A DNA stretch of 43,256 nucleotides, from positions 1 to 43,256 of the forward strand of contig NZ_CAHJWH010000007.1 in assembly GCF_903642205.1 (NCBI RefSeq). The letters are read 5' to 3'. The position numbers and the translations under genes are program-made. This document shows positions 5,779 through 23,326 of this stretch, piece after piece; positions within the stretch are counted from its first letter, which is position 1, and each line of letters begins with the position of its first letter. The notes under the pieces are model-generated. The model saw only the letters and a list, made by a program, of their open reading frames with translations. It ran no database searches and was not told where the DNA came from. The DNA is from Caulobacter sp. S45. Its GTDB lineage: Bacteria; Pseudomonadota; Alphaproteobacteria; Caulobacterales; Caulobacteraceae.

Positions 5779-6989
5779 GCGGAGGCGCGCTGGGGCGTGT
5801 GCATGAGGCCCAGCCGCTCGCCCACGGCGGCGAAGGCGGAGAGCACCGCGTCGATCTGCTCGAGCGTGTGCACGGCGCTGACGCTGGAGCGCAGCAGCGG
5901 GCGGCTGTCCGGGGTCGCCGGCGGCAGGGCCAGGTTGAGATAGACGCCGGCCTCCAGCAGCCCGTTCCACATGGCCAGGGCGCTCGCCAGGTCGGGCATG
6001 GCCACGGCCACGATGGGCGTCGGCTGCGGTCCCGTCTCGAAGCCCATGGCGTTCAGGCCGTCATAGAGCCGCATGGCGTTGGCGGCGAGCTTCGCCCGCA
6101 GCGGCGCATCCTGCTCGACGCGCCCGAGTGCCGTGAGGGTGGAGGCGACGACGCCCGGCGGCAGGGAGGCGGTGAACATGTAGGGCCGGCTGACCACGCG
6201 CAGCAGGTCGAAATCCTCGGCGTCCGACACGCAGAAGCCGCCGATGGCGCCCAGGCTCTTGGACATGGTGCCGACGATGAAGTCCACGTCGGCCTCCACC
6301 CCGGCCAGCTCCGCCAGGCCGCGGCCCCGCTCACCCAGCACGCCCATGGAGTGGGCCTCGTCCACCAGCAGGTGGGCGCCGAGCTCGCGCTTCACCGCGG
6401 CGATCTCCTTCAGCGGCGCAGTGTCGCCCAGCATGGAGTAGACGCCCTCCACCACGATCAGCCGCTCGCCGGGCACGCCCTCCAGCCGGCGCAGGCGCTT
6501 GTACAGGTCGTCCGGATCGTTGTGGCGGAAGCGGATCACCTCGGCGTGGCCCAGGCGCGCTCCGTCATAGATGCTGGCGTGGCTATCGGCGTCCAGGATC
6601 AGGTGGTCGCCGCGCCCGACCAGGGCCGAGAGCACGCCCAGGTTGGCCTGGTAGCCGGTGGTGAACAGCATGGCGTGGCGGCGGCCGAAAAAGCGGGCCA
6701 GCGCCTGCTCCATCTTCAGGTGCGCGTCCAGGCTGCCGTTGGCGATGCGAGAGCCCGTGGTGCCCGTGCCCCAGGCGCGCACGGCCTTGACCGAGTCCTC
6801 CACGCAGTCCGGGTCGAAGGTCAGGCCGAGATAGTTGTTGGCGCCCATGATTATCACCCGCCGCGCGCCCATCCGGCCCTCGGTCGGCGACAGCATCTCG
6901 TCGAAGCGGACGTTGAACGGATCGGCGCCATGCGCGCGGATGTGGTCGTAGGCGTCCTTGTAGCCGCGGTGCCTGTCCAGCAGACCCAT
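5775..6989 (-). CDS. spt: Serine palmitoyltransferase
   Basis: This is a ~404-residue PLP-dependent alpha-oxoamine synthase. It would condense L-serine with a fatty acyl thioester to give 3-oxo-sphinganine, the first step of sphingolipid synthesis. Family marks are GANNYLGLTFDP, GTGTTGSRIANGS, the PLP-contacting LLVDEAHSMGVLG, and the PLP lysine (about residue 244) in GTMSKSLGAIGGF. On sequence alone it could be a KBL or BioF relative. The adjacent ACP, acyl-ACP synthetase and reductase genes, as in Caulobacter, decide for Spt. I start at the ATG at 6989, 4 bases after the ACP stop; an in-frame ATG at 7007 would overlap the ACP gene by 14 bases. It is the last gene of the leftward operon. Confidence 0.93.
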   Translation of the reverse strand: MGLLDRHRGYKDAYDHIRAHGADPFNVRFDEMLSPTEGRMGARRVIIMGANNYLGLTFDPDCVEDSVKAVRAWGTGTTGSRIANGSLDAHLKMEQALARFFGRRHAMLFTTGYQANLGVLSALVGRGDHLILDADSHASIYDGARLGHAEVIRFRHNDPDDLYKRLRRLEGVPGERLIVVEGVYSMLGDTAPLKEIAAVKRELGAHLLVDEAHSMGVLGERGRGLAELAGVEADVDFIVGTMSKSLGAIGGFCVSDAEDFDLLRVVSRPYMFTASLPPGVVASTLTALGRVEQDAPLRAKLAANAMRLYDGLNAMGFETGPQPTPIVAVAMPDLASALAMWNGLLEAGVYLNLALPPATPDSRPLLRSSVSAVHTLEQIDAVLSAFAAVGERLGLMHTPQRASA

Positions 6990-6993
6990 GCCC

Positions 6994-7263
6994 TCAGGCC
7001 CTCTCACGGAGGTCGGTGATCAGGGCGGCCAGGTCGCCTGCCGTCTGCACCGAAGCCAGCCGGTCGAGCGGGATCGACACGTCGAAGGCGTCCTCCAGCT
7101 CCATCACAATGTTCATAAGGGCCAGGGAGTCCACGTTGAGGTCGCGTGCGATGTCGGTGGCGGGGCTCACCGTCACTGGGCGGCCCAGCACGTTGCGCGC
7201 CGCACGGGCGATCTCCGCGAGGGTGAAGTCCGTCACGTTTACGGTCATGACCGGCAGAATCAT
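6994..7263 (-). CDS. acpR: Acyl carrier protein of sphingolipid synthesis
   Basis: This small acidic protein (89 residues, or 84 if translation starts at the second ATG at 7248) carries the phosphopantetheine-attachment motif DSLALMN after NVDS, in a typical four-helix ACP sequence ending in LRERA. In Caulobacter a dedicated ACP next to spt (AcpR) carries the fatty acid that Spt condenses with serine. It needs 4'-phosphopantetheinylation, and a PPTase is encoded at 24704 in the same window. It lies between cerR (69 bases upstream) and spt. The 69-base gap holds a small hairpin (ATGGC-GAAA-GCCAT, 7306-7319) and a possible TATAAG -10 box on the minus strand, so a second internal promoter is possible. 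Confidence 0.9.
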   Translation of the reverse strand: MILPVMTVNVTDFTLAEIARAARNVLGRPVTVSPATDIARDLNVDSLALMNIVMELEDAFDVSIPLDRLASVQTAGDLAALITDLRERA

Positions 7264-7332: not shown

Positions 7333-8283
7333 CTAACGCCTCGCTCCGGCCAACCACTCCATGGCGCGATAGCCGGCGACCGTGTCGCGGAAACCCGCCG
7401 CCAGCTCGAACCGCGGCGGCGGAAGCCCGGCCGCAAGCTCGCCGGGCTGCAGGCCCCAGCCGCCGTGTAGGAGTTCCCGGATTTTACCCGACGTCACCAT
7501 GGGCGTGGCGCCGAGCAGGCCGCCGAGGTCGCCGGCGACGCCGAGCGCGCGCACCGCAAGGGTCGGGACGATCGCCAGCCTTACGCGCCGTCCGACCGCG
7601 GCCGCCGCCTGGGTCATGATCTCGCCCAGCCGGTGACCTTCGAGCCGCCCGTCGCAGAGCGCCACGCAGCCGCCGCCATCGATGCCCGCAAGCGTCGCGA
7701 TGGCCGAAGCCGCGTCATAGACATGGATCAGGGGGATGTTCAGCTCCCGGCGAAGGACAGGCAGGACCGGACTGGCGGCCGCCGCCTGGAACAGGCCCAG
7801 CGTCGCGCGGTCGCCCGGCCCGTAGATCGCGGGCGGCCGGACGATCCAGGCAGCCCGGCCCAGCGCCTCCGTGACCGCATGTTCGCCATCCCGCTTGCTC
7901 CGGGCGTAGGCCGAGAGCTGAGGGGCGCGAGCGGCCAGGCTGGAGACCAGCACGAAGGCGGCGTCCGGCGCCAACTCCCGCGCCACGGCCGCCAGCCGCC
8001 CGGCCCCTTCGGTGTTGACGTCCCGGAAGTGCGAGGCCCGGCGCGCCTTCACCACGCCCGCCACGTGGACGATCGCCTGGGCGCCGCGGCAAAGGCGTCG
8101 CAGCCCCTCCACGTCGGCCAGATCGCCCCGCACGATCTCCGGCTGCAGGTTGCGGAGGCGCGGGTCGGCGAGGTCGCGGCGGACCAGCAGCCTCAGCCGC
8201 CAGCCCTGCGCCGCCAGAGCCAGGCCGACCTGTCCCCCGAGGAAGCCCGTGACGCCGGTCAGCGCGGCCAGGCGCGCGGCCAC
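7333..8283 (-). CDS. cerR: NAD(P)-dependent epimerase/dehydratase, ceramide reductase
   Basis: This 316-residue extended-SDR protein has an N-terminal Rossmann glycine motif (GVTGFLGGQVG) and a catalytic YxxxK (SAYARSKRDGE) with a preceding serine pair in VLVSSLAA. In Caulobacter the SDR gene in this operon position (CerR) reduces the 3-oxo group of the sphingoid base or oxo-ceramide. The GTG start at 8283 abuts the TGA stop of the acyl-ACP synthetase (TGAGTG), so the two are translationally coupled. The SDR fold is certain. The ceramide-reductase role rests on operon position between aasR and acpR-spt. Confidence 0.87.
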   Translation of the reverse strand: MAARLAALTGVTGFLGGQVGLALAAQGWRLRLLVRRDLADPRLRNLQPEIVRGDLADVEGLRRLCRGAQAIVHVAGVVKARRASHFRDVNTEGAGRLAAVARELAPDAAFVLVSSLAARAPQLSAYARSKRDGEHAVTEALGRAAWIVRPPAIYGPGDRATLGLFQAAAASPVLPVLRRELNIPLIHVYDAASAIATLAGIDGGGCVALCDGRLEGHRLGEIMTQAAAAVGRRVRLAIVPTLAVRALGVAGDLGGLLGATPMVTSGKIRELLHGGWGLQPGELAAGLPPPRFELAAGFRDTVAGYRAMEWLAGARR

Positions 8284-9990
8284 TCAGGCGGTCTCGAAGG
8301 CGCCGACCAGGAACAGCTCACGCGCCCGCGCCCGTCGCAGCTTGCCCGAAGAGGTCTGCGGCAGCGCGCCCGGTCCGACCAGTCGGACCTCGGTCTCCAC
8401 GCCATGGCGGGCGCGGAGCAGGCCTGCGATATCAGCTGCGAGCCGGGCGCGGGCAGCCGGATCGCGCACCCGCGTCTGCACCAGGGCGATTACGCCCGGC
8501 CCGTCCTCCTCCGCCTGGAAGGCCGCCACATCGCCGCTGCGCAGACCCACGATCTCGGCCTCTGCGGTCCACTCCAGGTCCTGGGGCCAGATGTTGCGGC
8601 CGTTGTGCAGGATCAGGTCCTTGGCTCGCCCCGTGGGCGTCAGCTCGCCGTCGGCCAGGAAGCCGAGGTCGCCCGTGTCCAGCCACCCGTCGACGCCGAG
8701 CACCGCCGAGGTGGCGTCGGGTTGATCGAAATATCCGCGCATCAGGCTCGGGCCCCGCACGAAGATGCGGCCCAGGTGACGGTCCGGCAGGGGCGCGCCC
8801 GCCTCGTCGCGGACCTCCAGCTCGTGGCCGGGCAGCACCGGCCCACAGCGGACGAAATCCCGGCGGCGGGCGTAGCCGGCGCCGGCGACCGCACGGCCGC
8901 CCCGCTCCAGCCGGTCGCTGGCCAAGATCTCCTTGCGCACTCCCTGGCCCAGAGGGGACATGGCGAGCGCGAGGGTCGCCTCGGCCATGCCGTAGCTGGC
9001 CACAAACGCGCGCGCGTCGAAGCCCGAAGCCGCGAAGCGATCGGCGAATGCGGTGAGCGGGCCGGCCCGCACCATGTCGCCGCCCACCCCCGCCACACGC
9101 CAGCGCGACAGGTCGAGATCGGACAGGTCCGCCGTCTCGGCGCGCCGGGCGCAGAGCTCATAGCCGAAGCTCGGGCTGTAGGAGATGGTGGCGCCGGTCT
9201 GGCCGATCAGCCGCGGCCACAGCAGGGGCCGGCGGACGAAGGCGTCGGACGGCATCAGGTCCACCGACATGGCCACCGTCAGCGGGCTGAGCAGGAAGCC
9301 CACCAGACCCATGTCGTGGAACAGCGGCAGCCACGAGAAGGCGCGATCCCCGGCGCCGATCGCCAGGCCGTGGCGGGTGATGGCGTGCGCGTTGGCCCTC
9401 ACGGCGCGGTGGGTCACCACCACGCCGGTGGGCGTGCGGGTGCTGCCGGAGGAGAACTGCAGATAGCAGGTGTCTTCGGGCGTGGCCTCGACCCGCTCGA
9501 CCTCGCCCTTCGGCAGCTCGGCGAGCGGGGCGAGCTGCCGCAGGCCCGCTCGCGCACCGGCGGCCGCGACCAGCGGCTGCAGGGCTTCCGGGCCGAAGGC
9601 GGCGCTGGCGTGCGCCTGGGTGAGCAGGCGCGCGATCTGGTCCACATAGGCGTCGCCGCCGCCAAGCGGCGCAGGCAGCGGCATGGGCGCGGGAACCAGC
9701 CCGGCGTACTGGCAGGCGAAGAAGCTCGTGACGAAGGTCGCGCTCGTCTCGGCGACCAGCCCGACGCGGTCGCCAGGCGCAAGGCCTGAGGCCTGCAGGC
9801 GGCCCGCCAGGGCGAGGGCGCGCTCGCGCAGCCCTGCATAGGGCACGGCCTCGACCAGCTCTCCCCGCAGGCCGTAGATGTTCAGGCCGGTTGGCTGCTG
9901 AGCGGCGGCGTCCAGCGCGGCCGCCAGGGTGGGGTGGCCTGTCGCCGGCAGGGTGCGGTCGGGAGATGTCGGCGTCGGACTCACCTCCAA
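8284..9990 (-). CDS. aasR: Fatty acyl-AMP ligase / acyl-ACP synthetase
   Basis: This 568-residue adenylate-forming enzyme belongs to the fatty acyl-AMP ligase branch. The ATP-binding loop is QFSSGSTRTPTGVVVTH, followed by SWLPLFHDMGLVG, a later GYGMAEATLA-type motif (SYGMAEATLALA) and the hinge region DTGDLGFLADGELTPTGR. In Caulobacter the corresponding acyl-ACP synthetase (AasR) charges AcpR with a fatty acid for Spt. It heads the leftward operon aasR-cerR-acpR-spt. The start is ambiguous: TTG at 9990 or GTG at 9984 with an overlapping GGAGG. Both sit inside or next to the palindromic CCAAG site at 9987-10007, so binding there could control this operon. Confidence 0.9.
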   Translation of the reverse strand: MEVSPTPTSPDRTLPATGHPTLAAALDAAAQQPTGLNIYGLRGELVEAVPYAGLRERALALAGRLQASGLAPGDRVGLVAETSATFVTSFFACQYAGLVPAPMPLPAPLGGGDAYVDQIARLLTQAHASAAFGPEALQPLVAAAGARAGLRQLAPLAELPKGEVERVEATPEDTCYLQFSSGSTRTPTGVVVTHRAVRANAHAITRHGLAIGAGDRAFSWLPLFHDMGLVGFLLSPLTVAMSVDLMPSDAFVRRPLLWPRLIGQTGATISYSPSFGYELCARRAETADLSDLDLSRWRVAGVGGDMVRAGPLTAFADRFAASGFDARAFVASYGMAEATLALAMSPLGQGVRKEILASDRLERGGRAVAGAGYARRRDFVRCGPVLPGHELEVRDEAGAPLPDRHLGRIFVRGPSLMRGYFDQPDATSAVLGVDGWLDTGDLGFLADGELTPTGRAKDLILHNGRNIWPQDLEWTAEAEIVGLRSGDVAAFQAEEDGPGVIALVQTRVRDPAARARLAADIAGLLRARHGVETEVRLVGPGALPQTSSGKLRRARARELFLVGAFETA

Positions 9991-10007
9991 GTCTTGGAAC
10001 GTCCAAG
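9987..10007. promoter_or_regulatory. Overlapping CCAAG palindromes (candidate operator)
   Basis: Three CCAAG/CTTGG half-sites alternate in orientation: CCAAG (9987-9991), CTTGG (9993-9997) and CCAAG (10003-10007). They form two overlapping palindromes, CCAAG-T-CTTGG and CTTGGA-ACG-TCCAAG. The block sits at the start codon/RBS of aasR in the gap that separates it from divergent bcerS, a natural place for a repressor or an RNA hairpin controlling both. No such site is visible in the other gaps of the cluster. Confidence 0.4.
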
Positions 10008-10034
10008 GTGCGATCGCAAGGCGCGCCTCGGACG

Positions 10035-10060
10035 CCTCGTCCTTCGACGGGCTCAGGATG
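10035..10060 (+). repeat. Single arm of the intergenic palindrome family
   Basis: This stretch (core CTCGTCCTTCGACGGGCTCA) matches the right arm of the inverted repeat at 255-333 almost exactly, but the partner arm is absent here. It lies in the aasR-bcerS divergent gap. Confidence 0.6.
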
Positions 10061-10166
10061 CAGCCACTGCGGGCGCTTACGCCTAGAGCTGCAGCGATCT
10101 AGAAAGATGGTGCAGGCGTTCGCCGCCTCACCCCCCAGCCGCCCCGCCCCGCTCAAGGATGCCGCC

Positions 10167-11324
10167 GTGAACACAGTCCCCGACCCCGCGTCGATCGTGA
10201 TCGAACCGGTGTCCTCACGCGCCCAGCTGGACCGCTTCATCCGCCTGACCGACCGGCTGAACGCCCATGACCCGAACTACATCGCGCCGCTGCGGATGGA
10301 GCGGCGCCAGGCGTGGTCGGCCAAGGGCAATCCCTATTTCGAGCACGCGGAGGTCCAGTTTTGGCTGGCGAGGCGTGGCGGGCGCGACGTGGGTCGGATC
10401 AGCGCCCAGATCGACCGGCTCGCGCCGCCGGAGCCCGGGCAGCCGCACACCGGCCACTTCGGCCTGATCGCCGCGGAGGACGACGACGCCGTCTTCGCCG
10501 CCCTGCTGGGCGCGGCGGAGGCATGGCTGCGCACGCGCGGCTGCGGACGGGCTCTGGGGCCGCTGAACCTGTCGATCAACGAGGAGGTGGGACTGCTGAT
10601 CGACGGCTTCGACACCCCGCCCATGGTGATGATGGGCCACGATCCTCGCTATGCCGCCGCCCGGATCGAGGCGCAGGGCTACGCCAAGGCCAAGGACGTC
10701 TACGCCTATCTGTGCCGCTCCAGCGACGACCTGCCGGAGCCGGTGCTGAAGCGCATCCGCCGGGGCGTGCCGGGGGGCGTGCACCTCCGCCAGCTCGACA
10801 TGAAGCGTTATGACGCCGAGGTCGCCACCCTGACCGAAATCCTGAACGACGCCTGGTCGGAAAACTGGGGCTTCACGCCCACCACCGAGGCCGAGACCCG
10901 GGCGCTGGCCAAGGCGCTGAAGTCGGTGATCGACCCCACCCTGGTCTGGTTCGCCGAGATCGACGGCGAGGCGGCGGGGGTGATCGTCTACCTGCCCGAC
11001 GTGAACGCGGCCATCGCCGGGCTCGGCGGCCGGCTGCTGCCGTTCGGCTGGGTCCGCCTGCTCTGGCGGCTGAAGGTGCGGCGGGTGAAGTCGATCCGGG
11101 TGCCGCTGATGGGCGTGAAGAAGAAGTTCCACCGCGACCGGCGCGGCCAGCTCCTGCCCTTCCTGATGATCGACATCGGCGGCCGGCGCGCCTTCGCCCT
11201 GGGCTACGAGCGCTTCGAGCTGTCGTGGATCCTGGAGGACAACCGGGCCATGCGCCGCATCAGCGAGGCCATCGGCGCCGACGTCTACAAGACCTACCGC
11301 ATCTACGAGAAGGCGCTGGGGTGA
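10167..11324 (+). CDS. bcerS: Bacterial ceramide synthase (GNAT-like N-acyltransferase)
   Basis: This ~385-residue protein is related to the GNAT-like family that includes Caulobacter bCerS, which acylates the amino group of the sphingoid base. Recognisable blocks are RLNAHDPNYIAPLRMERRQ, FDTPPMVMMGHDP, NDAWSENWGFTPTTEAE, MGVKKKFHRDRRGQLLPF and the C-terminal ELSWILEDNRAMRRI. I chose the GTG at 10167 because AAGGA precedes it at seven bases; the frame is open further upstream, with an ATG at 10107. It is divergent from aasR across ~176 bases. In Caulobacter bcerS lies several genes away from spt, so this tighter head-to-head arrangement differs. The family call is strong, helped by context. 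Confidence 0.88.
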   Translation: MNTVPDPASIVIEPVSSRAQLDRFIRLTDRLNAHDPNYIAPLRMERRQAWSAKGNPYFEHAEVQFWLARRGGRDVGRISAQIDRLAPPEPGQPHTGHFGLIAAEDDDAVFAALLGAAEAWLRTRGCGRALGPLNLSINEEVGLLIDGFDTPPMVMMGHDPRYAAARIEAQGYAKAKDVYAYLCRSSDDLPEPVLKRIRRGVPGGVHLRQLDMKRYDAEVATLTEILNDAWSENWGFTPTTEAETRALAKALKSVIDPTLVWFAEIDGEAAGVIVYLPDVNAAIAGLGGRLLPFGWVRLLWRLKVRRVKSIRVPLMGVKKKFHRDRRGQLLPFLMIDIGGRRAFALGYERFELSWILEDNRAMRRISEAIGADVYKTYRIYEKALG

Positions 11325-14456: not shown

Positions 14457-14523
14457 CCCGGTGAGGTCTGGAGCGCCGCGCACATGATCGGCTTCACTAG
14501 CCGGGCCGCCGGGAATTTCAACG

Positions 14524-15429
14524 ATGAACGCGCCCAGCGTCCCGCCTTCGCCGGCGCTCCAGACCGCCCCCGAGGTCGCCAGGCCCGCGGAGCTTGAGCT
14601 CTGGAGCAACCGGCGGCTGGTTCACCCCCTCTCGCGCACCCTGGCGGCGCGGCTCGCCTCCACCTGGGTCACGCCCAACATGGTCTCGGTGGCCGGGGCG
14701 GCGATGGCGGCCGTGGGGGCTGCAGCCTACACCCTGCTGCCCCGGCCCTGGGGCGCCTTGCTGGGCCTCCTCAGCCACTACGCCTGGCACGTGCTGGACG
14801 GAGCGGACGGCGATCTTGCCCGGCGCACGGGTCGCAGCTCGCCCTCCGGCGAGTTGGTGGACGGCATCTGCGACTATGCGGGGCGCACGGTCCTGTACGT
14901 GGCGCTCGGCGCTGACGGGGCCGCCCAGTTCGGCGGCTGGGTCTGGCTGCTGGCCGGCGTCACTGGCGTGTCGCGCATCGTGCAGGCCAACTTCTACGAG
15001 ACCGTGCGCCGCCAGTACCGCCGCTGGGTCTACGGGACGGCGTGGATACGCCAGACGCTGGCCGCAGGACCGCCGGGCGGACGCGGCCCGGCCGGCGCCC
15101 TCGGGCGGCTGTTCCTGGCGGTCTCGACCCGGGTGACGCCGGACAGCACGGTCCTGGACGTCGCCATGGAACACGCCGCGGCGGCGGGCTCAACGAGTCG
15201 GCAGGCCGCACGCGCGGCCTGCCAGGCCGAGCTGGCCCCGGTCGTCCGGCGCGCGGCGATCCTGTCCACCAATGCGGAGACCGTGGCGGTCTTCCTGTCC
15301 ATGCTCGCGGGCGGACCGATCTTCCTGTTCGTCTATGTCGCCGTGGTGCTGAACGCGGCCTATGCCGGCCTCTACGCCGGCCAGCGGAGGCGGCTAGCAA
15401 GGACTGCGACGCGGCTCACGCCGGGCTGA
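14524..15429 (+). CDS. CDP-alcohol phosphotransferase family membrane enzyme
   Basis: This 301-residue protein has the complete CDP-alcohol phosphotransferase signature DG-x2-AR-x8-G-x3-D-x3-D, seen at DGDLARR, then GELVDGICD. Membrane helices follow in the second half. These enzymes move a phospho-alcohol from a CDP-alcohol to an acceptor, or a phosphatidyl group from CDP-diacylglycerol to an alcohol. The IPCT-like cytidylyltransferase at 17347 is a natural supplier of a CDP-alcohol. I infer that it builds a sphingolipid phospho-headgroup, by analogy with inositol-phosphate lipid synthesis where the same two enzyme classes pair. The start at 14524 gives an Ala/Pro-rich lead before the domain. 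Its 3' end overlaps the convergent ABC gene by 14 bases. Confidence 0.87.
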   Translation: MNAPSVPPSPALQTAPEVARPAELELWSNRRLVHPLSRTLAARLASTWVTPNMVSVAGAAMAAVGAAAYTLLPRPWGALLGLLSHYAWHVLDGADGDLARRTGRSSPSGELVDGICDYAGRTVLYVALGADGAAQFGGWVWLLAGVTGVSRIVQANFYETVRRQYRRWVYGTAWIRQTLAAGPPGGRGPAGALGRLFLAVSTRVTPDSTVLDVAMEHAAAAGSTSRQAARAACQAELAPVVRRAAILSTNAETVAVFLSMLAGGPIFLFVYVAVVLNAAYAGLYAGQRRRLARTATRLTPG

Positions 15430-17197
15430 GCGGGGTCGCCGCGTGGAACTGGAGGGCGGCGAGACGGGCGTATAGCCCGCTCCGGGCGATCAGCGCCGCA
15501 TGGGTCCCGCTCTCCACGACCCGTCCCTGGTCCATCACCAGGATGCGGTCGGCGTCCAGCACCGTGGCCAGGCGGTGGGCGATGACCAGCGTGGTCTGGG
15601 AGCGGCCGGCCTGGGCCAGGGCGTCCTGCACCAGCTGCTCGTTGCGGGCGTCCAGGGCGCTGGTGGCCTCGTCCAGGAGCAGGATCGCGGCGTCCCGGGC
15701 GAAGGCGCGGGCCAGGGCCACCCGCTGGCGCTGGCCGCCGGACAGCGAGCGGCCGCCCTCCCCCACCGGTGTCGAGAGGTCTCCGCCATCCAGGAACGCG
15801 TCCACCTGGGCGGCGGCGGCGGCGGCGGCGACCCGCTCGGCGCTCACCGGCGGCGTCCCGAAGTCGATGTTGTCGGCGACCGCGCCGGTGAACAGCATGG
15901 GGTCCTGGGAGACCAGGGCCATGCGCGCGCGGACATCGGCGGGCGAGGCCTGTCGCAAATCCACCCCGTCCAACCGAACCGAGCCCGACTGCGGGTCGTA
16001 GAAGCGCAGCAGCAGCTGGAAGACCGTGCTCTTCCCGGCGCCGGAAGGTCCGACCAGGGCCACCCGCTCGCCGGGCGCGATGCGGAAGCTGACGCCGCGG
16101 AGCGCCGCGGCCCGGCTGGCGTGCGGATAGCTGAACGCCACGTCCTCGAACACGATCTCGCCCCGCGCGGGCGTCGGCAGGCGTGTAGGCGACGCGGGGG
16201 CCGTGACGGCGGGGCGCAGGTCGAGCACCGCGCCGATCCGCTCCAGCGCCTCCAGCGCCTTGCGCGCCTCGCTCCACACCTCGGTCAGCGCGCTGGCGGA
16301 CGACGCCGCCAGCAGCGCCAGCACCCCCGACTGCACCAGCAGCCCCGTGGTCGAGCGATGGGTGACATAGGCCGCGTAGGCGCCCTCGCCGAGGAGCGCC
16401 GCCAGTCCCAGGAACAGCAGCAGGATGATGGCGAAAGCGAGCGCGGCGTGGGTCCGCGCCCGCACCCGGGCCGCGGCGCCGGCCGCCTCGATGGCGGCGG
16501 CAAAGCGCGTGGCGGCGCGCCCTTCGTGACCGAAGGCCTGCAGGGTCGCAAGTCCCGCCAGGCTCTCGCCGGCAAAGCCGATGGCCTCGGCGATGCGCGC
16601 CTGCGCGGACGCCCCACTCCGCCGCAGCCGCCGTCGGAAGATGAGGAGAGGGGCCAGGAAGATCGGGACGAACAGCAGCAGGGCCGCCGAGATCGGCCGC
16701 AGCACGATCAGCAGGCCGAGCGCCCCCGCCAGGCTCACCAGGTTGCGCAGCGCCACGGAACAGAGGTTGCCGGCGAGGTTCTGCACCGCCGCCACGTCGC
16801 TGGTGAGGCGCGAGAGCAGATCACCCGGCTCACGGCCCGCCAGGGCTGTGGGATCCAGGCCAAGGGCGCGATCGTAGAGGCTGCGCCGCAGGTCGGTCCC
16901 GATCCGCTCGCCCAGGACGGTGACGAAATAGATGCGCAGGGCCGTCGTCGCTGCGAAGACCCCCGCGACCAGCCCCAGCGCGAGCAGGGGCGCCAGGAGG
17001 TCGGAGCCGCCGCGCGTCGACCCCAGGCGGTCGATCGCGAACCGGCCCGCCACGGTCAGGCCCAGGATCGCCGCTGTCGACAGGAGTACGGACAGGGCCG
17101 CCAGTCCGGTCAGGCCGGGCCGCGCGCCGAGCAGTCCGCCGAGCCGCCGGACGGGTCCGGCCTCGTCGCTCGCCGAAGCCTCATGGGCTGGTCTCAA
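15416..17197 (-). CDS. MsbA-like ABC transporter (TMD-NBD half transporter)
   Basis: This 593-residue half transporter has six membrane helices followed by an ABC domain. Visible are Walker A GPSGAGKST, the signature LSGGQRQRVALARA, Walker B AILLLDEATSALD and an H-loop in VIAHRLATV. The architecture and length match the lipid-A flippase MsbA and other lipid exporters; it would act as a homodimer in the inner membrane. Within this cluster the likely cargo is the finished cytoplasmic sphingolipid, flipped to the periplasmic leaflet (inference). It is separated from the divergent cytidylyltransferase gene by ~150 bases that must hold both promoters. Peptide or drug export would be alternatives if the context were ignored. 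Confidence 0.9.
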   Translation of the reverse strand: MRPAHEASASDEAGPVRRLGGLLGARPGLTGLAALSVLLSTAAILGLTVAGRFAIDRLGSTRGGSDLLAPLLALGLVAGVFAATTALRIYFVTVLGERIGTDLRRSLYDRALGLDPTALAGREPGDLLSRLTSDVAAVQNLAGNLCSVALRNLVSLAGALGLLIVLRPISAALLLFVPIFLAPLLIFRRRLRRSGASAQARIAEAIGFAGESLAGLATLQAFGHEGRAATRFAAAIEAAGAAARVRARTHAALAFAIILLLFLGLAALLGEGAYAAYVTHRSTTGLLVQSGVLALLAASSASALTEVWSEARKALEALERIGAVLDLRPAVTAPASPTRLPTPARGEIVFEDVAFSYPHASRAAALRGVSFRIAPGERVALVGPSGAGKSTVFQLLLRFYDPQSGSVRLDGVDLRQASPADVRARMALVSQDPMLFTGAVADNIDFGTPPVSAERVAAAAAAAQVDAFLDGGDLSTPVGEGGRSLSGGQRQRVALARAFARDAAILLLDEATSALDARNEQLVQDALAQAGRSQTTLVIAHRLATVLDADRILVMDQGRVVESGTHAALIARSGLYARLAALQFHAATPLSPA

Positions 17198-17346: not shown

Positions 17347-18084
17347 GTGAAGGCGCTGATCGTGGCGGCGGGCCAGGGCGTGCGCCTGCGTGGCCTCGCC
17401 GCCTCCAAGCCGCTCGCGCCTGTGGGCGGGGTTGCGCTGATCGAGCGCGTCATCGCCGGAGCCGCGCGCGCGGGCGTGAGCGAGTTCGTGGTGGTCACCG
17501 GCTACCAGGGCGACGCCGTGGCGGCGAGGCTCGCGGACATCTCCGCCCGCCTCGACCTGACGGTGACCAGCGTGTTCAACCCGGACTGGCGCGGGGCCAA
17601 CGGCGTCTCCGTGCTGGCGGCCGAGGCGCTGCTGACGGGCGAGTTCCTGCTGCTCATGGCCGACCACCTGTTCGACCCCTCGATCCTGGCCGACCTGATC
17701 GCCCTGGACGACGCGGCGCCCGTAGTGCTGGCCGTGGACCGGCGCCTCGGCAACCCTCTGGTCGACCTGGAGGACGTCACCCGGGTGCAGACGGCCAAGG
17801 GCGGCGCGATCAGGCGCATCGGCAAGCTGATCGACAGCTACGACGCCTTCGACACCGGCCTGTTCCGCGCCGGGCCCGCCCTGTTCGACGCTCTGCGGGC
17901 CGACGTGGAGGGCGGGGGCGGAGGCGGCATCTCCGCCGGTATGCAGCGGCTGGCGGATGCGGGCCGGGCCTCCACCTTCGACATCGGCGACCGCTTCTGG
18001 ATCGACGTGGACGACGCCCTCGCGCTCGACAAGGCGGAGCGATCTCTTCGCGCCACGTCGACAGCCGTCCGCATCGCCTCCTGA
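17347..18084 (+). CDS. Inositol-phosphate-cytidylyltransferase-like NTP transferase
   Basis: This 245-residue enzyme has a sugar-phosphate nucleotidyltransferase fold with ALIVAAGQGVRLRGLAASKP at the N-terminus. Further motifs closely follow the CTP:inositol-1-phosphate cytidylyltransferase (IPCT) group: FNPDWRGANGVSVL, LMADHLFDP, RIGKLIDSYDAFDTGLF, a glycine-rich segment and RFWIDVDD. In IPCT-DIPPS systems a CDP-alcohol made this way is used by a CDP-alcohol transferase, and such an enzyme lies nearby at 14524. In Caulobacter a cytidylyltransferase (CpgD) makes CDP-glycerate for anionic ceramide lipids, and this gene could be its counterpart. The true substrate, inositol-P or phosphoglycerate, cannot be told from sequence. 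The GTG start leaves 13 bases between its stop and the LptFG start. Confidence 0.83.
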   Translation: MKALIVAAGQGVRLRGLAASKPLAPVGGVALIERVIAGAARAGVSEFVVVTGYQGDAVAARLADISARLDLTVTSVFNPDWRGANGVSVLAAEALLTGEFLLLMADHLFDPSILADLIALDDAAPVVLAVDRRLGNPLVDLEDVTRVQTAKGGAIRRIGKLIDSYDAFDTGLFRAGPALFDALRADVEGGGGGGISAGMQRLADAGRASTFDIGDRFWIDVDDALALDKAERSLRATSTAVRIAS

Positions 18085-18097
18085 GCCGGAGACAGCC

Positions 18098-20371
18098 TTG
18101 AAGCGGCTCGCTGGCGGCCAGCTCGACCGGTACCTCCTGCGCCGCCTGTGGCCGCCGGTAGCGGCGAGCCTGGGCCTGATCCTGGCGGCCCTGCTGCTCG
18201 ACAAGGCGCTGCGGCTGGTCCAGGCGCTGTCGGACAGCGGGGCGCGCCTGGCGTTCCTGCTGCCGCTGATGGCGGCCCTGAGCCCCTACTTCCTCGCCAC
18301 CGCGATCCCCTTCGCCTTCTTCACCGGGCTGCTGATCTGCGTCAGCGGCCTGGACGCCGACGGTGAGATCGAGGCGATCCTGGCCGCCGGCGTCTCGCCC
18401 GGGCGGCTCGCCACTCCCTTCATAGCCGCGGGCGCGGCCATCGCCCTTGCGATGCTCGCCGTCTCCGCCTGGCCCGAGCCGCTGGGACGTTTCAGCTACA
18501 ACCAGGGCCTGGCCCGGGCGCAGCAGGCGGGATGGTCGGGGCGGCTGGAGCCCGGGGTGGTGTTCGCGCCCAAGCCCGGCTCGAGCCTCGAGGCCGAGCA
18601 GGTGCTGCTGGTGGGCCACCGGTTGCGGGGCGTCTTCCAGACCCAGCGCAACCCGTCCGGCGGCGAGACGGTCACCACGGCCAGGGGAGGCTCCTGGAGC
18701 TTCGTCCATGGCGGCCGCGACGTGGCGCTGACGCTGCACGACGGCTCGGTGCTGCGCGACGCCGCCGCCTCCGGCCCCACCTTCGGTCGCTTCGACACCC
18801 TGGACCAGATCGAGCCCTCAGGCGTCGCCGTCGCCAGGCCCGTCCGCGGCGGGGACGAGCGGGAGCTGACCCTGCCCGAGCTGTTCGGGGCGCTGGAGGC
18901 CGGCGGGCATCGCGGGCGGGTCGTGGGGGCGGAGCTGGCGGTGAAGCTGGTGCAGGCGGCGGTCCTGGCCTTCCTGCCGCTCTTCGCCCTGCCCCTCGCC
19001 CTGGCGAGCAAGCGCGGCGGCCGGGCGCCCGGCATGATCGTGGCCGTGGCCAGCCTCGCGGCCTTCCACCACGGCGTGGAGTTCTTCAAGGGCCTGGCGG
19101 TGAGCGGCAGGCTGTCCTCGGCCTGGCCGATCGTCGCCTGCCTGATCGTGTTCGCCGCCGTCTGCATCGCGGTGCACCTGACCAGCCGGCGGCGACCTGG
19201 CGACAATCCCATCACCCGCACGGGAGCCTGGCTGGCCTGGGCGACCCGCGGCGTGCGCCGCCGCATCGCCCTCTTGGGCGGCGTCTCCTGGCTCACCCGG
19301 CGATATTCGAACCTGCCCGCCTACATCGTCTGGCTGTTCGCAGTCCGCACGGCCATCGCGGGCCTGGGTTTCGTCCTGTTCTTCCAGATCGTCGACCTGC
19401 AGGAGATGAGCCCCAAGATCCTGTCGCGGGGCCTGGGTGTGGCGGGGCTCGCCCGCTACGAGACGCTGCGGGCGCCCGCCATGGTTCTGCAGCTGGGCGG
19501 ACTGGCGATCCTGGTCGGCGCGGTGGCGACCTTCTTCGCGCTCGGCCGCAGCAGCGAGAGCGTGGCCATGCAGGCCTGCGGCGTCTCCCCCTACCGCATC
19601 CTGCGGGCCGCGGCGCCAGTGGCCCTGGCCATGGCGGCGCTGGAGTTCGGCCTCTCCGCCGAGGTGGCGCCCCACGCCCAGGCGGCGCTGGACGGGTGGT
19701 GGAGCGACAGCACGCCGGTGCAGGAGCGCGTGGCGCCCCAGGGCCGCTGGCTGCGCGTGGGGCGCGACCTGCTGCACGCGGACCACGTCAGCGCCGACGG
19801 TCGCAGCCTGCAGGGCGTGACGATGTACGGCCGCGACGCCGACGGGCTGCTGCGCAGCCGCACCTCCGCAGCCACCCTGCAGTGGGCCCGTGGCTGGCGG
19901 GCGGGCGCGACCCGCTTCGACCAGGTGGGTGAAGCCGGCGATGTGGTCACCCGCGCGCCGGCGTCCCGCTGGACGGGCGTGGGGCTCAGCCCCTTCGACC
20001 TGCGCGCGGTGACCCGCACCTCCGAGGAGACCACCACGCTGGCGGCGGTCTGGACGCGGGTTTCGGGCGCGGCCACCGACAAGCGCGGACACGACCTGGC
20101 GACGCGGGTGCAGCACGGGCTGTCCGAGCCGCTCAGCCCCTTCATCATGCTGCTGCTGGCCTCCCCGGTGCTCGTCTGGTCCGGAGGCCGCCGCGGCCAG
20201 ACCCTGCCGCTCGGCGCGGCCCTCGGCTCGGGCCTGGCCTTCCTGATGACCGACGGCCTGTTGACGGCGCTGGGCGAAGCGGGCGACCTGCCGGCCCTCG
20301 TCGCCGCCTGGACGGCGCCCGCGGTCTTTGCGGCCGGGGGGTTGTGGGCCCTGTCCTTCTCCGACGGCTGA
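18098..20371 (+). CDS. LptF-LptG-like fusion permease
   Basis: This 757-residue protein contains two YjgP/YjgQ (LptF/LptG) permease units in one chain. The first starts with RYLLRRLWPPVAASLGLILA and SGLDADGEIEAILAAGVSP. The second starts near residue 400 with LTRRYSNLPAYIVWLFAVRT, then LGRSSESVAMQACGVSPYRI. Each half has paired membrane helices flanking a periplasmic beta domain. Normally LptF and LptG are separate proteins that, with LptB ATPase, extract LPS into the Lpt bridge. I chose the TTG at 18098, with GGAG seven bases upstream and 13 bases after the cytidylyltransferase stop; an earlier ATG lies deep inside that gene. I infer a dedicated exporter for the locus lipid, presumably borrowing LptB and LptC, which are not encoded here. 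Confidence 0.85.
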   Translation: MKRLAGGQLDRYLLRRLWPPVAASLGLILAALLLDKALRLVQALSDSGARLAFLLPLMAALSPYFLATAIPFAFFTGLLICVSGLDADGEIEAILAAGVSPGRLATPFIAAGAAIALAMLAVSAWPEPLGRFSYNQGLARAQQAGWSGRLEPGVVFAPKPGSSLEAEQVLLVGHRLRGVFQTQRNPSGGETVTTARGGSWSFVHGGRDVALTLHDGSVLRDAAASGPTFGRFDTLDQIEPSGVAVARPVRGGDERELTLPELFGALEAGGHRGRVVGAELAVKLVQAAVLAFLPLFALPLALASKRGGRAPGMIVAVASLAAFHHGVEFFKGLAVSGRLSSAWPIVACLIVFAAVCIAVHLTSRRRPGDNPITRTGAWLAWATRGVRRRIALLGGVSWLTRRYSNLPAYIVWLFAVRTAIAGLGFVLFFQIVDLQEMSPKILSRGLGVAGLARYETLRAPAMVLQLGGLAILVGAVATFFALGRSSESVAMQACGVSPYRILRAAAPVALAMAALEFGLSAEVAPHAQAALDGWWSDSTPVQERVAPQGRWLRVGRDLLHADHVSADGRSLQGVTMYGRDADGLLRSRTSAATLQWARGWRAGATRFDQVGEAGDVVTRAPASRWTGVGLSPFDLRAVTRTSEETTTLAAVWTRVSGAATDKRGHDLATRVQHGLSEPLSPFIMLLLASPVLVWSGGRRGQTLPLGAALGSGLAFLMTDGLLTALGEAGDLPALVAAWTAPAVFAAGGLWALSFSDG

Positions 20372-20394
20372 TCGAGCGGACGCACAGTACGAGG

Positions 20395-20931
20395 ATGTCG
20401 ATGCCGAGTCCCGTCCAGCCCTGGATGAGGCGCGCCGCGCGCGTGGGCCTGAGCCTGAGCCTGAGCCTGAGCCTGGGCCTGAGCCTTGCGGCCGCCACCC
20501 TGTGCGCCACCGGCGTCAGCGCCCAGGAGGACGCCTGCGATGGCCAGCCGTCCGGCGTGCGGCTGTTCATCTCGGTGGACCGGGTGGTGCGCACCGAAGG
20601 CCAGGTCGCCGCCACCGTCTATCCGGACGATCCCCACCGCTTCCTCGCCCACCATGGCCAGCTGGCCATCGTGCGCCGGCCGAGCGCCGCGCCGTCGACG
20701 CAGCTGTGCCTGTGGCTGCCGGCGGCCGGACGCTACGAGGTGGCGGTCTACCAGGACCTGAACGGCGACCATCGCTTCAACCGCACCGCGCTCGGCCTGC
20801 CGGCGGAGCCCTACGGCCTGTCCAACGACCCGCCGAACCTGATGGGCCTGCCGACCTTCCGCTCGGTGCGGTTCCCGGTGCACGCGGGCGACAACACCAT
20901 CCACATCCCGCTGCACAAGGCCAGGGGCTGA
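20395..20931 (+). CDS. Secreted DUF2141 protein
   Basis: This protein of 178 residues has a signal peptide built on an unusual (Leu-Ser)n run, ending near GVSAQEDAC, and a DUF2141 beta-domain from ~residue 50 with AVYQDLNGDHRFN and a conserved PTFRSVRFPV region. It should be periplasmic or outer-membrane associated. DUF2141 has no firmly assigned biochemical role. I chose the ATG at 20395, 24 bases after the LptFG stop, so it is likely the last gene of the cytidylyltransferase-LptFG operon. The hydrophobic core of its signal peptide is encoded by a 6-bp tandem repeat, listed separately. Confidence 0.8.
   Translation: MSMPSPVQPWMRRAARVGLSLSLSLSLGLSLAAATLCATGVSAQEDACDGQPSGVRLFISVDRVVRTEGQVAATVYPDDPHRFLAHHGQLAIVRRPSAAPSTQLCLWLPAAGRYEVAVYQDLNGDHRFNRTALGLPAEPYGLSNDPPNLMGLPTFRSVRFPVHAGDNTIHIPLHKARG
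20447..20488 (+). repeat. Hexanucleotide tandem repeat in signal-peptide coding region
   Basis: About six and a half copies of GCCTGA (one copy GCCTGG, last partial) run in frame and encode alternating Leu-Ser in the h-region of the DUF2141 signal peptide. Because the unit is two codons, slippage would lengthen or shorten the hydrophobic stretch without a frameshift. Confidence 0.85.
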
Positions 20932-20937
20932 GGCCGT

Positions 20938-22032
20938 TCAGCCGGCCCTGCGCGCCAGCTTCAGCAACCGGACATAGGCGTGGGCCAGCCTGAGCCCTGC
21001 TGCGGCCAGGGCGCCGGGGAGGCCCGAGCCCCCGGCGGGATGCGCGACGGCCTGGGCCAGGGCGGGCTCGACCAGGCGGCGCTGCAGCTCGCCCGCCAAG
21101 GCTTGGTCGGTGAAGACGCCGACGATCTCCGCCTCCGCCTCCAGGCTCACGAAGTCGAAGTTGGAGGAGCCGAGGATCACCGTCGCATCGTCGATGAGCA
21201 CCGCCTTGACGTGGCTCATCTCCGGCGTCTGGACCAGGCGGAAACCTTCCCGCCGCGCCAGGCCCGCGATGTAGCGGCGCAGGATCGGCTTGTTGTTCGC
21301 CTGGGGCGTCAGGACGCTCACGCGCACGCCGCGCCGGTGCGCCCGGACCAGCCCGTCGGTGAAGGGGAAGCTCAGATACGGGCTGGCCACGACGATCTCT
21401 TCACACGCCGCGTCCAGGTGCGAGGCCAGGGTGGTGAAGGCTCCGGCATTGCGGCGCCCGTCCATGCGGTAGAGGCTCAGACCGTCGAAGTCGGCGCGCC
21501 AGCCGCCCGCAGCAGCCTGTTCGGCCGAAGGGAAGTCCTGCGCCAGTCGGTCAGCCACCTCGCCCCGCGCGATCCTGACCATCAGGTCGGGCCAGGCGAA
21601 GTTGTGGTCGCTGAAGTTGATCCCGCCGATATAGGCCACGTCGTCCGCCACGATGACCTTGCGGTGGTCGCGAAAGGGGTAGTCGCGCCAGAGCCTGCGG
21701 ACCGGCGCGGTCCAGACCACCTCCACGCCCGCGGCCTCCAGGCGCGCGAACATGGCCGAGGTGGCGCGGACCTCCACCTGCAGGGCCTCGTCGCGCCTGG
21801 CCCGGCGCGTGTGCACCCAGCGATCGTTCACCACCCATCGCGTGTAGTCGTCCACCGCCACCCGGCGCAGGGGCGCGGCGCTGGCCTGGATGGCGGCGGC
21901 GACCTCCAGGCCCACCGCGTCGCCCTCGAAGGTCATGGCCTGCACCAGCACCCGCCGGCGCGCGGCCGCGATGTCGGCGCTGGCCCGCGCCCAGAACTCG
22001 CCCGCGCCGATCAGCAGTTCATGGCGAGGCAC
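20938..22032 (-). CDS. Phospholipase D / cardiolipin-synthase-like enzyme
   Basis: This ~364-residue protein has two HxKx4D phosphodiesterase motifs: HRKVIVADDVAYIGGINFSD in the middle and HVKAVLIDDATVILGSSNFD near the C-terminus. These make one bi-domain active site typical of cardiolipin synthases and other PLD enzymes. It lacks N-terminal membrane helices. It could transfer or hydrolyse phospholipid headgroups, and the neighbourhood suggests a link with the envelope lipid made here, for example transphosphatidylation onto ceramide (speculative). I take the GTG at 22032 (PRHELLIGAGEFW); an in-frame ATG at 22074 would leave only 13 bases to the divergent GT4 gene. It ends 6 bases from the convergent DUF2141 gene. 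Confidence 0.85.
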   Translation of the reverse strand: MPRHELLIGAGEFWARASADIAAARRRVLVQAMTFEGDAVGLEVAAAIQASAAPLRRVAVDDYTRWVVNDRWVHTRRARRDEALQVEVRATSAMFARLEAAGVEVVWTAPVRRLWRDYPFRDHRKVIVADDVAYIGGINFSDHNFAWPDLMVRIARGEVADRLAQDFPSAEQAAAGGWRADFDGLSLYRMDGRRNAGAFTTLASHLDAACEEIVVASPYLSFPFTDGLVRAHRRGVRVSVLTPQANNKPILRRYIAGLARREGFRLVQTPEMSHVKAVLIDDATVILGSSNFDFVSLEAEAEIVGVFTDQALAGELQRRLVEPALAQAVAHPAGGSGLPGALAAAGLRLAHAYVRLLKLARRAG

Positions 22033-22087
22033 GGCCGGGTCCCTGGCGCCGCGTTGCGCCGCGCCGCGCCCCACCTATAAGGCCCCG

Positions 22088-23326
22088 ATGCCGCCGGCGA
22101 GAAGCCTCCAGCCCGAGAGCCGCGGGGTCGACGATGCGGACGGCGACGAGGCGGACGGGCGCATCCGCGTGCTGCTGCTGCTGAGCTCGTTGCACGGCGG
22201 CGGGGCCGAGCGGGTGGCGGTGAACCTGCTGAACGGCTGCGACCCGGCCCGCTTCGACGTCCGCATGGGCCTGCTGCGCCGCGCCGGCCCCTACCTCGAC
22301 GATGTCGATCCGGGGCGCATCGACGTGGCCGCGGGCGGCGGCTGGCTGCGGGACGATCGTGGCAACGCCGCCCTCTACCGGCCCGACCGCCTGGTCGCCG
22401 GCGCCGTCCAGGCGCCCCGGGCCCTCGCCGCCCTGGTGCGCCGCTCACGCCCGCACGTGGCGGTCAGCTTCCTTAAGGGCCTGAGCCTGGCCGCCTGGCC
22501 GGCCATGGGGCTGCTGGGCGCGGAGCGGCCGCGCTGGCTGGCGCGGGAGGGCAACAACGCCCTGGCCGTAATCGATGGCGAGGTGGCCAATCCGCTCGGC
22601 CGGCGTGTGGTCAAGTCGATGCTCGGCCGCTGCTACAGGGCGGCGGACGGGGTGCTGGCCAATTCGGCGGACATGGCCGAGGGCCTGCGTCGCAACTTCC
22701 GGCTGGCGCCTGAGCGGGTGCACGTGGCGCCCAATCCCATCGACCTGGCCAGGATCGAGGCGGGCGCCAGGGTCCCGCTCGACCTAGCGGGCCGCAGACC
22801 CTTCATCGTCACGGCGGGCCGGCTGGAGCCGCAGAAGGGACAGAGCCTGCTCCTGCGCGCCTTCGCCGCCAGCCGCGCCTGCGACGGGCTCGACCTCGTC
22901 ATCCTGGGCGAGGGCAGCCTGAAGGCGCGGCTGCAGGCGCTCGCCGTGGACCTGGGCGTCGCTGAGCGGGTGCGCTTGCAGGGCTTCGCCGCCAATCCCT
23001 GGGCCTGGTTCGCGCGGTCGCTCCTGTTCGTGCTGCCCTCGTTCTGGGAGGGCTTTCCCAACGCCCTGCTCGAGGCCATGGCCTGCGGTGCGCCCGTGGT
23101 GGCCAGCGCCTGCGACTACGGCCCGCGTGAGGCCATCGACCATGGCCGCAGCGGACTGCTGACGCCCGTCGGCGACATCGACGCCCTCGCCGCGGCCTTG
23201 GATGCGGTGCTGAGCGCCCCCCAATACGCGCTCGCCCTTGGGGCGGCCGCCAAGGTGCGTGCTCACGATTTCGGACTGACGCAGTCCATCGAAGCCTACT
23301 CGGCCATCTTCGCAGCCTATGCGTGA
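22088..23326 (+). CDS. GT4 family glycosyltransferase
   Basis: This ~412-residue protein has two Rossmann halves. The N-terminal half starts RVLLLLSSLHGGGAERVAVN, the glycine loop of GT-B enzymes, and includes HVAPNPIDL. The C-terminal half has TAGRLEPQKGQSLLLRAF and the nucleotide-sugar-binding PSFWEGFPNALLEAMACGAP, a typical EX7E region. It is cytosolic or peripheral and would transfer a sugar from a nucleotide donor, probably to a lipid (inference). I start at the ATG at 22088, which follows an AT-rich CCTATAAGG stretch. The upstream frame overlaps the PLD gene. The following GH1-like gene starts inside its 3' end (8-base overlap), so they are co-translated. Confidence 0.9.
   Translation: MPPARSLQPESRGVDDADGDEADGRIRVLLLLSSLHGGGAERVAVNLLNGCDPARFDVRMGLLRRAGPYLDDVDPGRIDVAAGGGWLRDDRGNAALYRPDRLVAGAVQAPRALAALVRRSRPHVAVSFLKGLSLAAWPAMGLLGAERPRWLAREGNNALAVIDGEVANPLGRRVVKSMLGRCYRAADGVLANSADMAEGLRRNFRLAPERVHVAPNPIDLARIEAGARVPLDLAGRRPFIVTAGRLEPQKGQSLLLRAFAASRACDGLDLVILGEGSLKARLQALAVDLGVAERVRLQGFAANPWAWFARSLLFVLPSFWEGFPNALLEAMACGAPVVASACDYGPREAIDHGRSGLLTPVGDIDALAAALDAVLSAPQYALALGAAAKVRAHDFGLTQSIEAYSAIFAAYA

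Follow-up and report, generated by a model that had tools for sequence, protein, structure and literature searches.

Sphingolipid locus of Caulobacter sp. S45

The draft genome of Caulobacter sp. S45 (3.26 Mb in 265 contigs, 96% complete) includes a stretch of 43,256 nucleotides of contig NZ_CAHJWH010000007.1, called the window below. Genes for serine palmitoyltransferase, an acyl carrier protein, an epimerase-family protein and an acyl-AMP ligase cluster at 5.8–10 kb of the window (Table 1), bearing out the sphingolipid locus that an earlier note on this DNA had recognized. Relatives of the candidate ceramide synthase adjoin LptG2, a position that the published map of C. crescentus gives to the dihydroceramide gene CC_1154 (PMC11324152). 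The MsbA-related ABC protein is encoded divergently to the adjoining nucleotidyltransferase gene and shares the ABC_membrane and ABC_tran make-up of the lipid A flippase MsbA, but it stays below the cut-off of the MsbA model and scores better on an MsbA-related model, again below the cut-off.

The gene of main interest encodes a single chain with two LptF/LptG (PF03739) units, LptF-like first and LptG-like second, as the earlier note had proposed. The 13-base gap to the upstream ORF, which ends at 18084, was also confirmed; that ORF, described in the note as a headgroup cytidylyltransferase, encodes a nucleotidyltransferase whose nearest solved relative is a CTP:inositol-1-phosphate cytidylyltransferase. 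The reading frame of the fused gene is open over 17957–20371, and 757 residues are counted from a TTG at 18098. We favor this start over an upstream ATG because the closest relative (locus L010, protein 88% identical) has a GTG start at the matching position.

Table 1. Features of the window: positions, strands and basis of assignment.
Feature	Position	Strand	Basis
Serine palmitoyltransferase, beta type	5775..7007	-	NF047599, 650 bits (cut-off 500)
Acyl carrier protein	6994..7263	-	PF00550, 47 bits (cut-off 20.8)
NAD-dependent epimerase family, ceramide-reductase candidate	7333..8283	-	PF01370; role from locus context, no model
Fatty acyl-AMP ligase subfamily, acyl-ACP synthetase candidate	8284..9990	-	NF006624, 766 bits (cut-off 600)
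Candidate bacterial ceramide synthase	9891..11324	+	No Pfam/NCBIfam match; name from synteny and published gene order only
CDP-alcohol phosphotransferase (PF01066)	14524..15429	+	Pfam, NCBIfam
MsbA-related ABC exporter, candidate locus flippase	15416..17197	-	TIGR02204, 586 bits (cut-off 780); TIGR02203, 372 bits (cut-off 602); both below
Nucleotidyltransferase, nearest solved relative CTP:inositol-1-phosphate cytidylyltransferase	17347..18084	+	Best PDB match 2xme, E 1.6e-14; NF041135, 95 bits, far below cut-off 580
Fused LptF2-LptG2 permease, 757 aa	18098..20371	+	Two PF03739 stretches; LptF-like and LptG-like halves; fused in relatives
LptF-like half, residues 1–365	18098..19192	+	NCBIfam, PDB matches, hydropathy
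Coupling-helix glutamate E90, equivalent to E. coli LptF E84	18365..18367	+	Offset of aligned ranges and alignment columns
Linker, residues 366–405, with LptF2 tail motif SR.RPG[ED]xPI	19193..19312	+	Same motif ends split LptF2 proteins; dN/dS 0.18 vs L010
LptG-like half, residues 406–757	19313..20368	+	NCBIfam, PDB matches, hydropathy
Coupling-helix glutamate E487, equivalent to E. coli LptG E88	19556..19558	+	Residue alignment with 6mhu_G and alignment columns
DUF2141 protein	20344..20931	+	ORF as listed overlaps end of fused gene
PLD-family protein, distantly cardiolipin-synthase-like	20938..22074	-	Profile matches
Family-4 glycosyltransferase	21890..23326	+	Profile match

Features of the fused protein

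The whole protein matched PF03739 in two stretches with 341.5 bits (E 7e-102; cut-off 27.9), and each half exceeded the cut-off separately. The best NCBIfam model was LptF (TIGR04407) for the first half (193.4 bits) and LptG (TIGR04408) for the second (214.7 bits), both below the respective equivalog cut-offs of 230 and 240; the fused protein of locus L120 exceeds both, with 255.5 and 281.9 bits. The LPS-export equivalogs of LptF and LptG are separate chains, whereas the window protein is one chain. In a comparison with solved structures, 18 sequences were matched; the best LptF chains cover residues 11–361 and the best LptG chains residues 405–752, some other matches being shorter.

A simple hydropathy scan gave six hydrophobic regions per half, and the joint between the halves (residues 365–405) is basic, with nine Lys and Arg against one Asp or Glu. 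With the crossings even in number, the positive-inside rule would place the joint on the cytoplasmic side, and the fusion is therefore topologically allowed. Single-sequence fold prediction reached a mean pLDDT of only 39.6, so the assignment of the fold rests on sequence comparison.

Separate canonical Lpt components

The dedicated role proposed by the earlier note hinged on ordinary lptF and lptG being present elsewhere in the genome, and both were found. Two further PF03739 genes above the cut-off, each with a single unit, lie at C23:17437-18483 and C9:6004-7059; two more matches, of 12.8 and 12.5 bits, were far below it. An 898-residue ORF carrying an LptD_N domain follows the C9 gene directly, its start lying within that gene. 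In phylogenetic trees, the C23 and C9 products fall into the canonical clades, beside the LptF and LptG proteins from related genomes and apart from the fused protein. Matches to LptC, LptA and LptB lie together on contig C15, away from the fused gene, in agreement with the note. PF03968 has two matches in the genome, one beside LptC, which was taken as LptA, and one in a frame of about 900 residues, which was taken as LptD. The LptC match on C15 is the only one in the genome, and the LptB on the same contig is the only ABC protein above the LptB equivalog cut-off; the other 23 of 24 ABC matches score lower.

Co-occurrence with serine palmitoyltransferase

The presence of the gene was compared with that of serine palmitoyltransferase (beta type) in 199 genomes of the family and 385 genomes of the class. 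Only the best few candidates per genome were scored, and the thresholds for a match (1e-25 for the family, 1e-20 for the class) were chosen after canonical matches had reached 1.7e-20 and 8.1e-20. In the family, the gene was found in 69 genomes and the synthase in 70: both were present in 69, the synthase alone in one (G140), the gene alone in none, and neither in 129. They occupy the same 7 of 22 genera, and two genomes of such genera (G002 and G023) lack both. In the class, both were present in 41 genomes, the gene alone in 2, the synthase alone in 8 and neither in 334. One of the two gene-only genomes (G296) has a match near the threshold with an internal stop; the other is G545. The 8 class genomes without a match, out of 49 bearing the synthase, were counted with at most two candidates scored per genome. 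Fisher tests gave P = 2e-53 for the family and 1e-44 for the class, values that are too small because the genomes are related.

The two genes are also close to each other. Among 71 LptF2 places, 63 lie on the same contig as the synthase at distances of 104 to 11,109 bases (median 4,680), and the remaining 8 are on different contigs; the distance in the window, 11,109 bases, is the largest of the 63. The 71 places omit 12 extra LptF-like single genes, five extra serine palmitoyltransferase copies and the partial copy of G140, a genome that is included in the genome-level counts. When the 12 extra LptF-like genes are counted, 63 of 83 places are on a synthase contig. These genes occur in 12 family genomes that also have the main copy; 8 are on a contig other than that of the listed synthase and 4 are more than 450 kb away from it, so being LptF2-like alone does not mean being sphingolipid-linked. 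The window has a second LptF/LptG set encoded with serine palmitoyltransferase, a feature of the sphingolipid-linked LptF2/LptG2 type.

It could be argued that the fused protein is a second exporter of lipopolysaccharide (LPS), or of a lipid A variant, that is merely linked to the sphingolipid locus. Membership of both halves in PF03739, the scores of the L120 protein above both LPS-exporter cut-offs, and the lack of a second LptB above the cut-off and of a second LptC in the genome would fit such an exporter. However, canonical-type lptF and lptG are already present, and the gene occurs in none of the 129 family genomes without the synthase, which makes this explanation unlikely. Its presence in 69 of the 70 synthase-bearing genomes, together with the separate canonical genes, strongly supports on comparative grounds the proposal of the earlier note that the protein would be a dedicated extractor for the product of the locus rather than for LPS.

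Two of the 12 extra genes (L137:6073-7176 and L138:6466-7662), both away from serine palmitoyltransferase, are each accompanied by a glycosyltransferase-4-like gene (30–31% identical to that of the window), and no LptG-like match was found within 14 kb. Their products are perhaps a third extractor, for a glycolipid. A related LptF/LptG pair is also present in another family of the order (f5; L019, L020, L021 and L055); in L055, the locus examined (20 kb), there was no match to serine palmitoyltransferase.

Comparison of fused-type and split-type loci

We compared 14 of the 17 places with the fused form (the window, L045, L046, L120–L124 and L129–L134; those of G001, G120 and G135 were left out) with 10 sphingolipid-linked loci in which the two units are separate genes (L043, L044, L047, L049, L054, L118, L119 and L125–L127). 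The split-type queries were taken from L118 and L119, which thus match by construction, and the threshold was E 1e-8. A ceramide-kinase-like gene (identity as low as 26%) occurs in nine of the 10 split loci, a phosphoesterase gene in eight, a CpgD-like gene in five and a gene for a 449-residue protein in six. The last has no Pfam or NCBIfam match and, going by its place, may be CC_1166, the potential flippase of C. crescentus (PMC11324152). At the same threshold, none of the queries for the ceramide-kinase-like protein, the phosphoesterase, LptC2 and the 449-residue protein matched in the 14 fused loci. An MsbA-like gene lies beyond the acyl-AMP ligase gene in all 11 fused loci with sequence there, the contigs of the other 3 ending earlier, whereas no full MsbA-like match was found in the 10 split loci (L125 has a partial one, 29% identical).

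The loci also differ in their headgroup genes. Where fused loci have a nucleotidyltransferase, the best fit is the type of the window. This inositol-type nucleotidyltransferase and the CDP-alcohol gene are both present in 5 of the 14 fused loci, several of which lie close to a contig end; L121, L123 and L134 additionally have an inositol-phosphate synthase gene beside the two. The window genome has two inositol-phosphate synthases, on other contigs, and matches to this enzyme were found in 8 of 17 genomes with the fused form against 3 of 52 others (G010 was counted as fused). These fractions led us to reject an inositol headgroup for every fused locus. The nucleotidyltransferase of split-type L118 has 10 PDB matches, none of them an inositol enzyme, and the second best is a phosphocholine cytidylyltransferase, a likeness that fits the description of CpgD (PMC13228409). 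A point to the contrary is that it is also hit by the NCBIfam inositol model, with 67 bits against 95 for that of the window. The CDP-alcohol gene does not discriminate, since split-type L119 scores 46 bits and the window 41 bits with inositol-phosphate models. G010 has split LptF2 and LptG2 genes (L047) but MsbA-like, nucleotidyltransferase, CDP-alcohol and inositol-phosphate synthase genes (L136), and it looks intermediate between the locus types, provided that its contigs belong together.

A second LptC in the locus, as in the sphingolipid-linked LptF2/LptG2 type, was not found in the window. No second LptC (PF06835) was seen in any of the 17 fused-form genomes: 15 have one match, G135 has none, and in G105 a weak second match (E 0.005) sits next to the first, where LptA would be expected. 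The synthase contig carries an LptC match within 12 kb in 34 of 53 split-form genomes (G010 was counted in both groups), and even split-type genomes therefore do not all have a second LptC. The single LptC of the genome is presumably the one that the fused exporter uses.

Coupling to LptB

In E. coli, LptF E84 and LptG E88 are important for LPS transport: changing both to Ala lowers the affinity for LptB, and a change of the LptG glutamate alone causes outer-membrane permeability defects (PMC5082905). Both coupling-helix glutamates of LptB2FG-type extractors are present in the window protein, as E90 and E487, and the fused form thus retains what docking on LptB is known to need. At the LptF site, Glu was found in 13 of 16 fused proteins (Gln in the other three), 15 of 15 canonical, 36 of 36 class and 14 of 14 split family rows; at the LptG site, it was found in 16 of 16 fused, 15 of 16 canonical, 34 of 34 class and 3 of 14 split family rows, the other 11 having Ala. 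Strict conservation of these residues was rejected as a mark of the group in view of the Gln and Ala variants. The fused protein is predicted to associate with LptB for ATP-driven extraction.

A sphingolipid extractor working without LptB, powered by another ATPase or by the MsbA-related ABC protein of the locus, is the other possibility to be weighed. The absence of a second LptB above the cut-off among the 24 ABC matches, the variability of the coupling-helix glutamates in the sphingolipid-linked group and the position of the ABC gene, divergent beside the nucleotidyltransferase gene, would be compatible with it. We nevertheless consider it improbable, as the window protein keeps both glutamates, the ABC protein has a transmembrane region of its own, and a full match to that protein was found in none of the 10 split loci examined.

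Origin of the fusion

In the family scan, a stop-free fused form was found in the window genome, on G010:C150 and in genus g21, where all 14 genomes with a match have it. G140, another g21 genome (71% complete), has serine palmitoyltransferase but gave no match to the LptF2/LptG2 gene. G010 (6% contaminated) has a split copy on C162 in addition to the fused one. The remaining genera with a match have the two units as separate genes, which in G014 lie on two contigs. Among the matches listed for the 385 class genomes, there was no further stop-free fused form; five span both units in one frame with stops in between.

The closest relative (G001, taken as L010) appeared to have the gene split into two frames. 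This was rejected, the break being an assembly gap of roughly 30 N and not a frameshift. Past the gap, the L010 linker is in frame, with a dN/dS of 0.18 against the window over 40 codons; the linker is under purifying selection. Split LptF2 proteins end in a C-terminal tail with the motif SR.RPG[ED]TPI or a close variant, and the same tail forms the first part of the linker in fused proteins. The fusion is real: the split genes of other genera, the draft state of the window genome and the run of N in its closest relative might suggest an assembly or sequencing artefact that joined two ordinary adjacent genes, but the stop-free frames in all g21 genomes with a match and in G010, and the conserved in-frame linker of L010, render this extremely improbable.

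A joined tree of both halves (37 rows) shows a single origin of the fusion, with the fused rows in one clade (bootstrap 99, SH-aLRT 95) and the split copy of G010 as its sister (94 and 89). The placement is less sure than these values imply, the window lineage being a long branch (2.3 changes per column). Support for the fused clade was only 87 in the tree of the LptF half alone, and the tree of the LptG half alone requires two changes.

G096 has a second fused LptFG (L128:8407-10977, minus strand; 35% identical). Within 15 kb of L128, no match to the sphingolipid genes of the window was found; an ORF near this gene is parE-like by eye.

Relation to known systems

A second set of LptF and LptG for sphingolipids is not a new idea. 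In the sphingolipid region of C. crescentus, second versions of LptC (LptC2, CC_1168), LptF (LptF2, CC_1156) and LptG (LptG2, CC_1155), encoded by separate genes, were proposed in 2024 to move phosphosphingolipids to the outer membrane (PMC11324152). Cofitness with the headgroup gene CC_1159 was 0.78 for CC_1168 mutants and 0.60 for CC_1156 mutants, and that paper puts the three proteins forward as transport candidates by suggestion, transport itself not being studied in detail there (PMC11324152). Another 2024 paper describes the flippases and transporters of sphingolipids as not yet identified by its authors (PMC11087976). The window resembles C. crescentus in having a second LptF/LptG set within a sphingolipid region, with ceramide genes, but differs in that the set is one chain, no second LptC was found and the headgroup genes are different. 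Compared with the LPS extractor LptB2FG(C) (PDB 5x5y, 6mhu, 6s8h and others), the two halves match LptF and LptG chains, the best alignments covering most of each half, and keep both glutamates; the differences are the single chain, the other locus, the coexisting canonical-type copies and the scores of the halves below the LPS equivalog cut-offs.

No fused one-chain LptF-LptG was found in the literature, a weak negative because subscription journals were mostly outside the search; the available text of PMC10094684 contains none, and none of the transport and inositol terms searched for was found in PMC9386255. As far as these searches show, the single-chain form is new, as is the set of genes around it, in which an MsbA-related ABC exporter, accompanied at some loci by inositol-type headgroup genes, is found instead of the ceramide-kinase set, with no second LptC. 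Likewise, comparative support for the link between LptF2/LptG2 and sphingolipids was not found in print. The present scans turn the LptC2/F2/G2 suggestion into a sharp family-wide prediction and show which parts of the locus travel together.

Proposed working of the exporter

We conclude that the single-chain LptF2-LptG2 permease probably stands in for the LptF/LptG heterodimer within a dedicated Lpt-type exporter for the sphingolipid of the locus. We infer the following scheme for its substrate, its flippase, the sharing of LptB and of the bridge, and the reason for the fusion. The MsbA-related ABC protein encoded in the locus would flip a ceramide lipid with a phospho-headgroup, here probably of the inositol type, into the outer leaflet. 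The fused permease would dock on LptB via one coupling-helix glutamate per half, and ATP hydrolysis would power the transfer of the lipid out of the inner membrane and into the jellyroll domains, from which it would be passed to the LptC/LptA/LptD bridge that is also used by LPS. The fusion would have arisen once, the cytoplasmic tail of LptF2 continuing into LptG2, and may serve to keep the sphingolipid halves paired with each other and not with the cell's own LptF and LptG.

More tentatively, the fused branch might have a complete second export line for a sphingolipid with a swapped headgroup. An MsbA-like ABC flippase, joined in some members of the branch by inositol-type headgroup genes, would have replaced the ceramide-kinase/phosphoglycerate set and the putative flippase of the split type, and a single-chain LptFG that borrows LptB, LptC and the LptA–LptD bridge would have followed; G010, with its 6% contamination, would be an intermediate. 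If so, the same motor and the same bridge would be contested by two ABC permeases that carry different cargo. An extractor made of one chain would have its subunit pairing built in, an advantage for structural work, and would make it possible to study how two cargoes are served by a single LptB and a single bridge.

Two PMT_2-family (PF13231) membrane proteins are encoded within the locus at 11360–14609 on the minus strand, one of them very weakly ArnT-like (49 bits; cut-off 567), and they could be decorators of the locus lipid. An AsmA-family protein (44.5 bits; cut-off 29.8), a member of a family with a link to lipid transfer, is encoded at 33975–35807.
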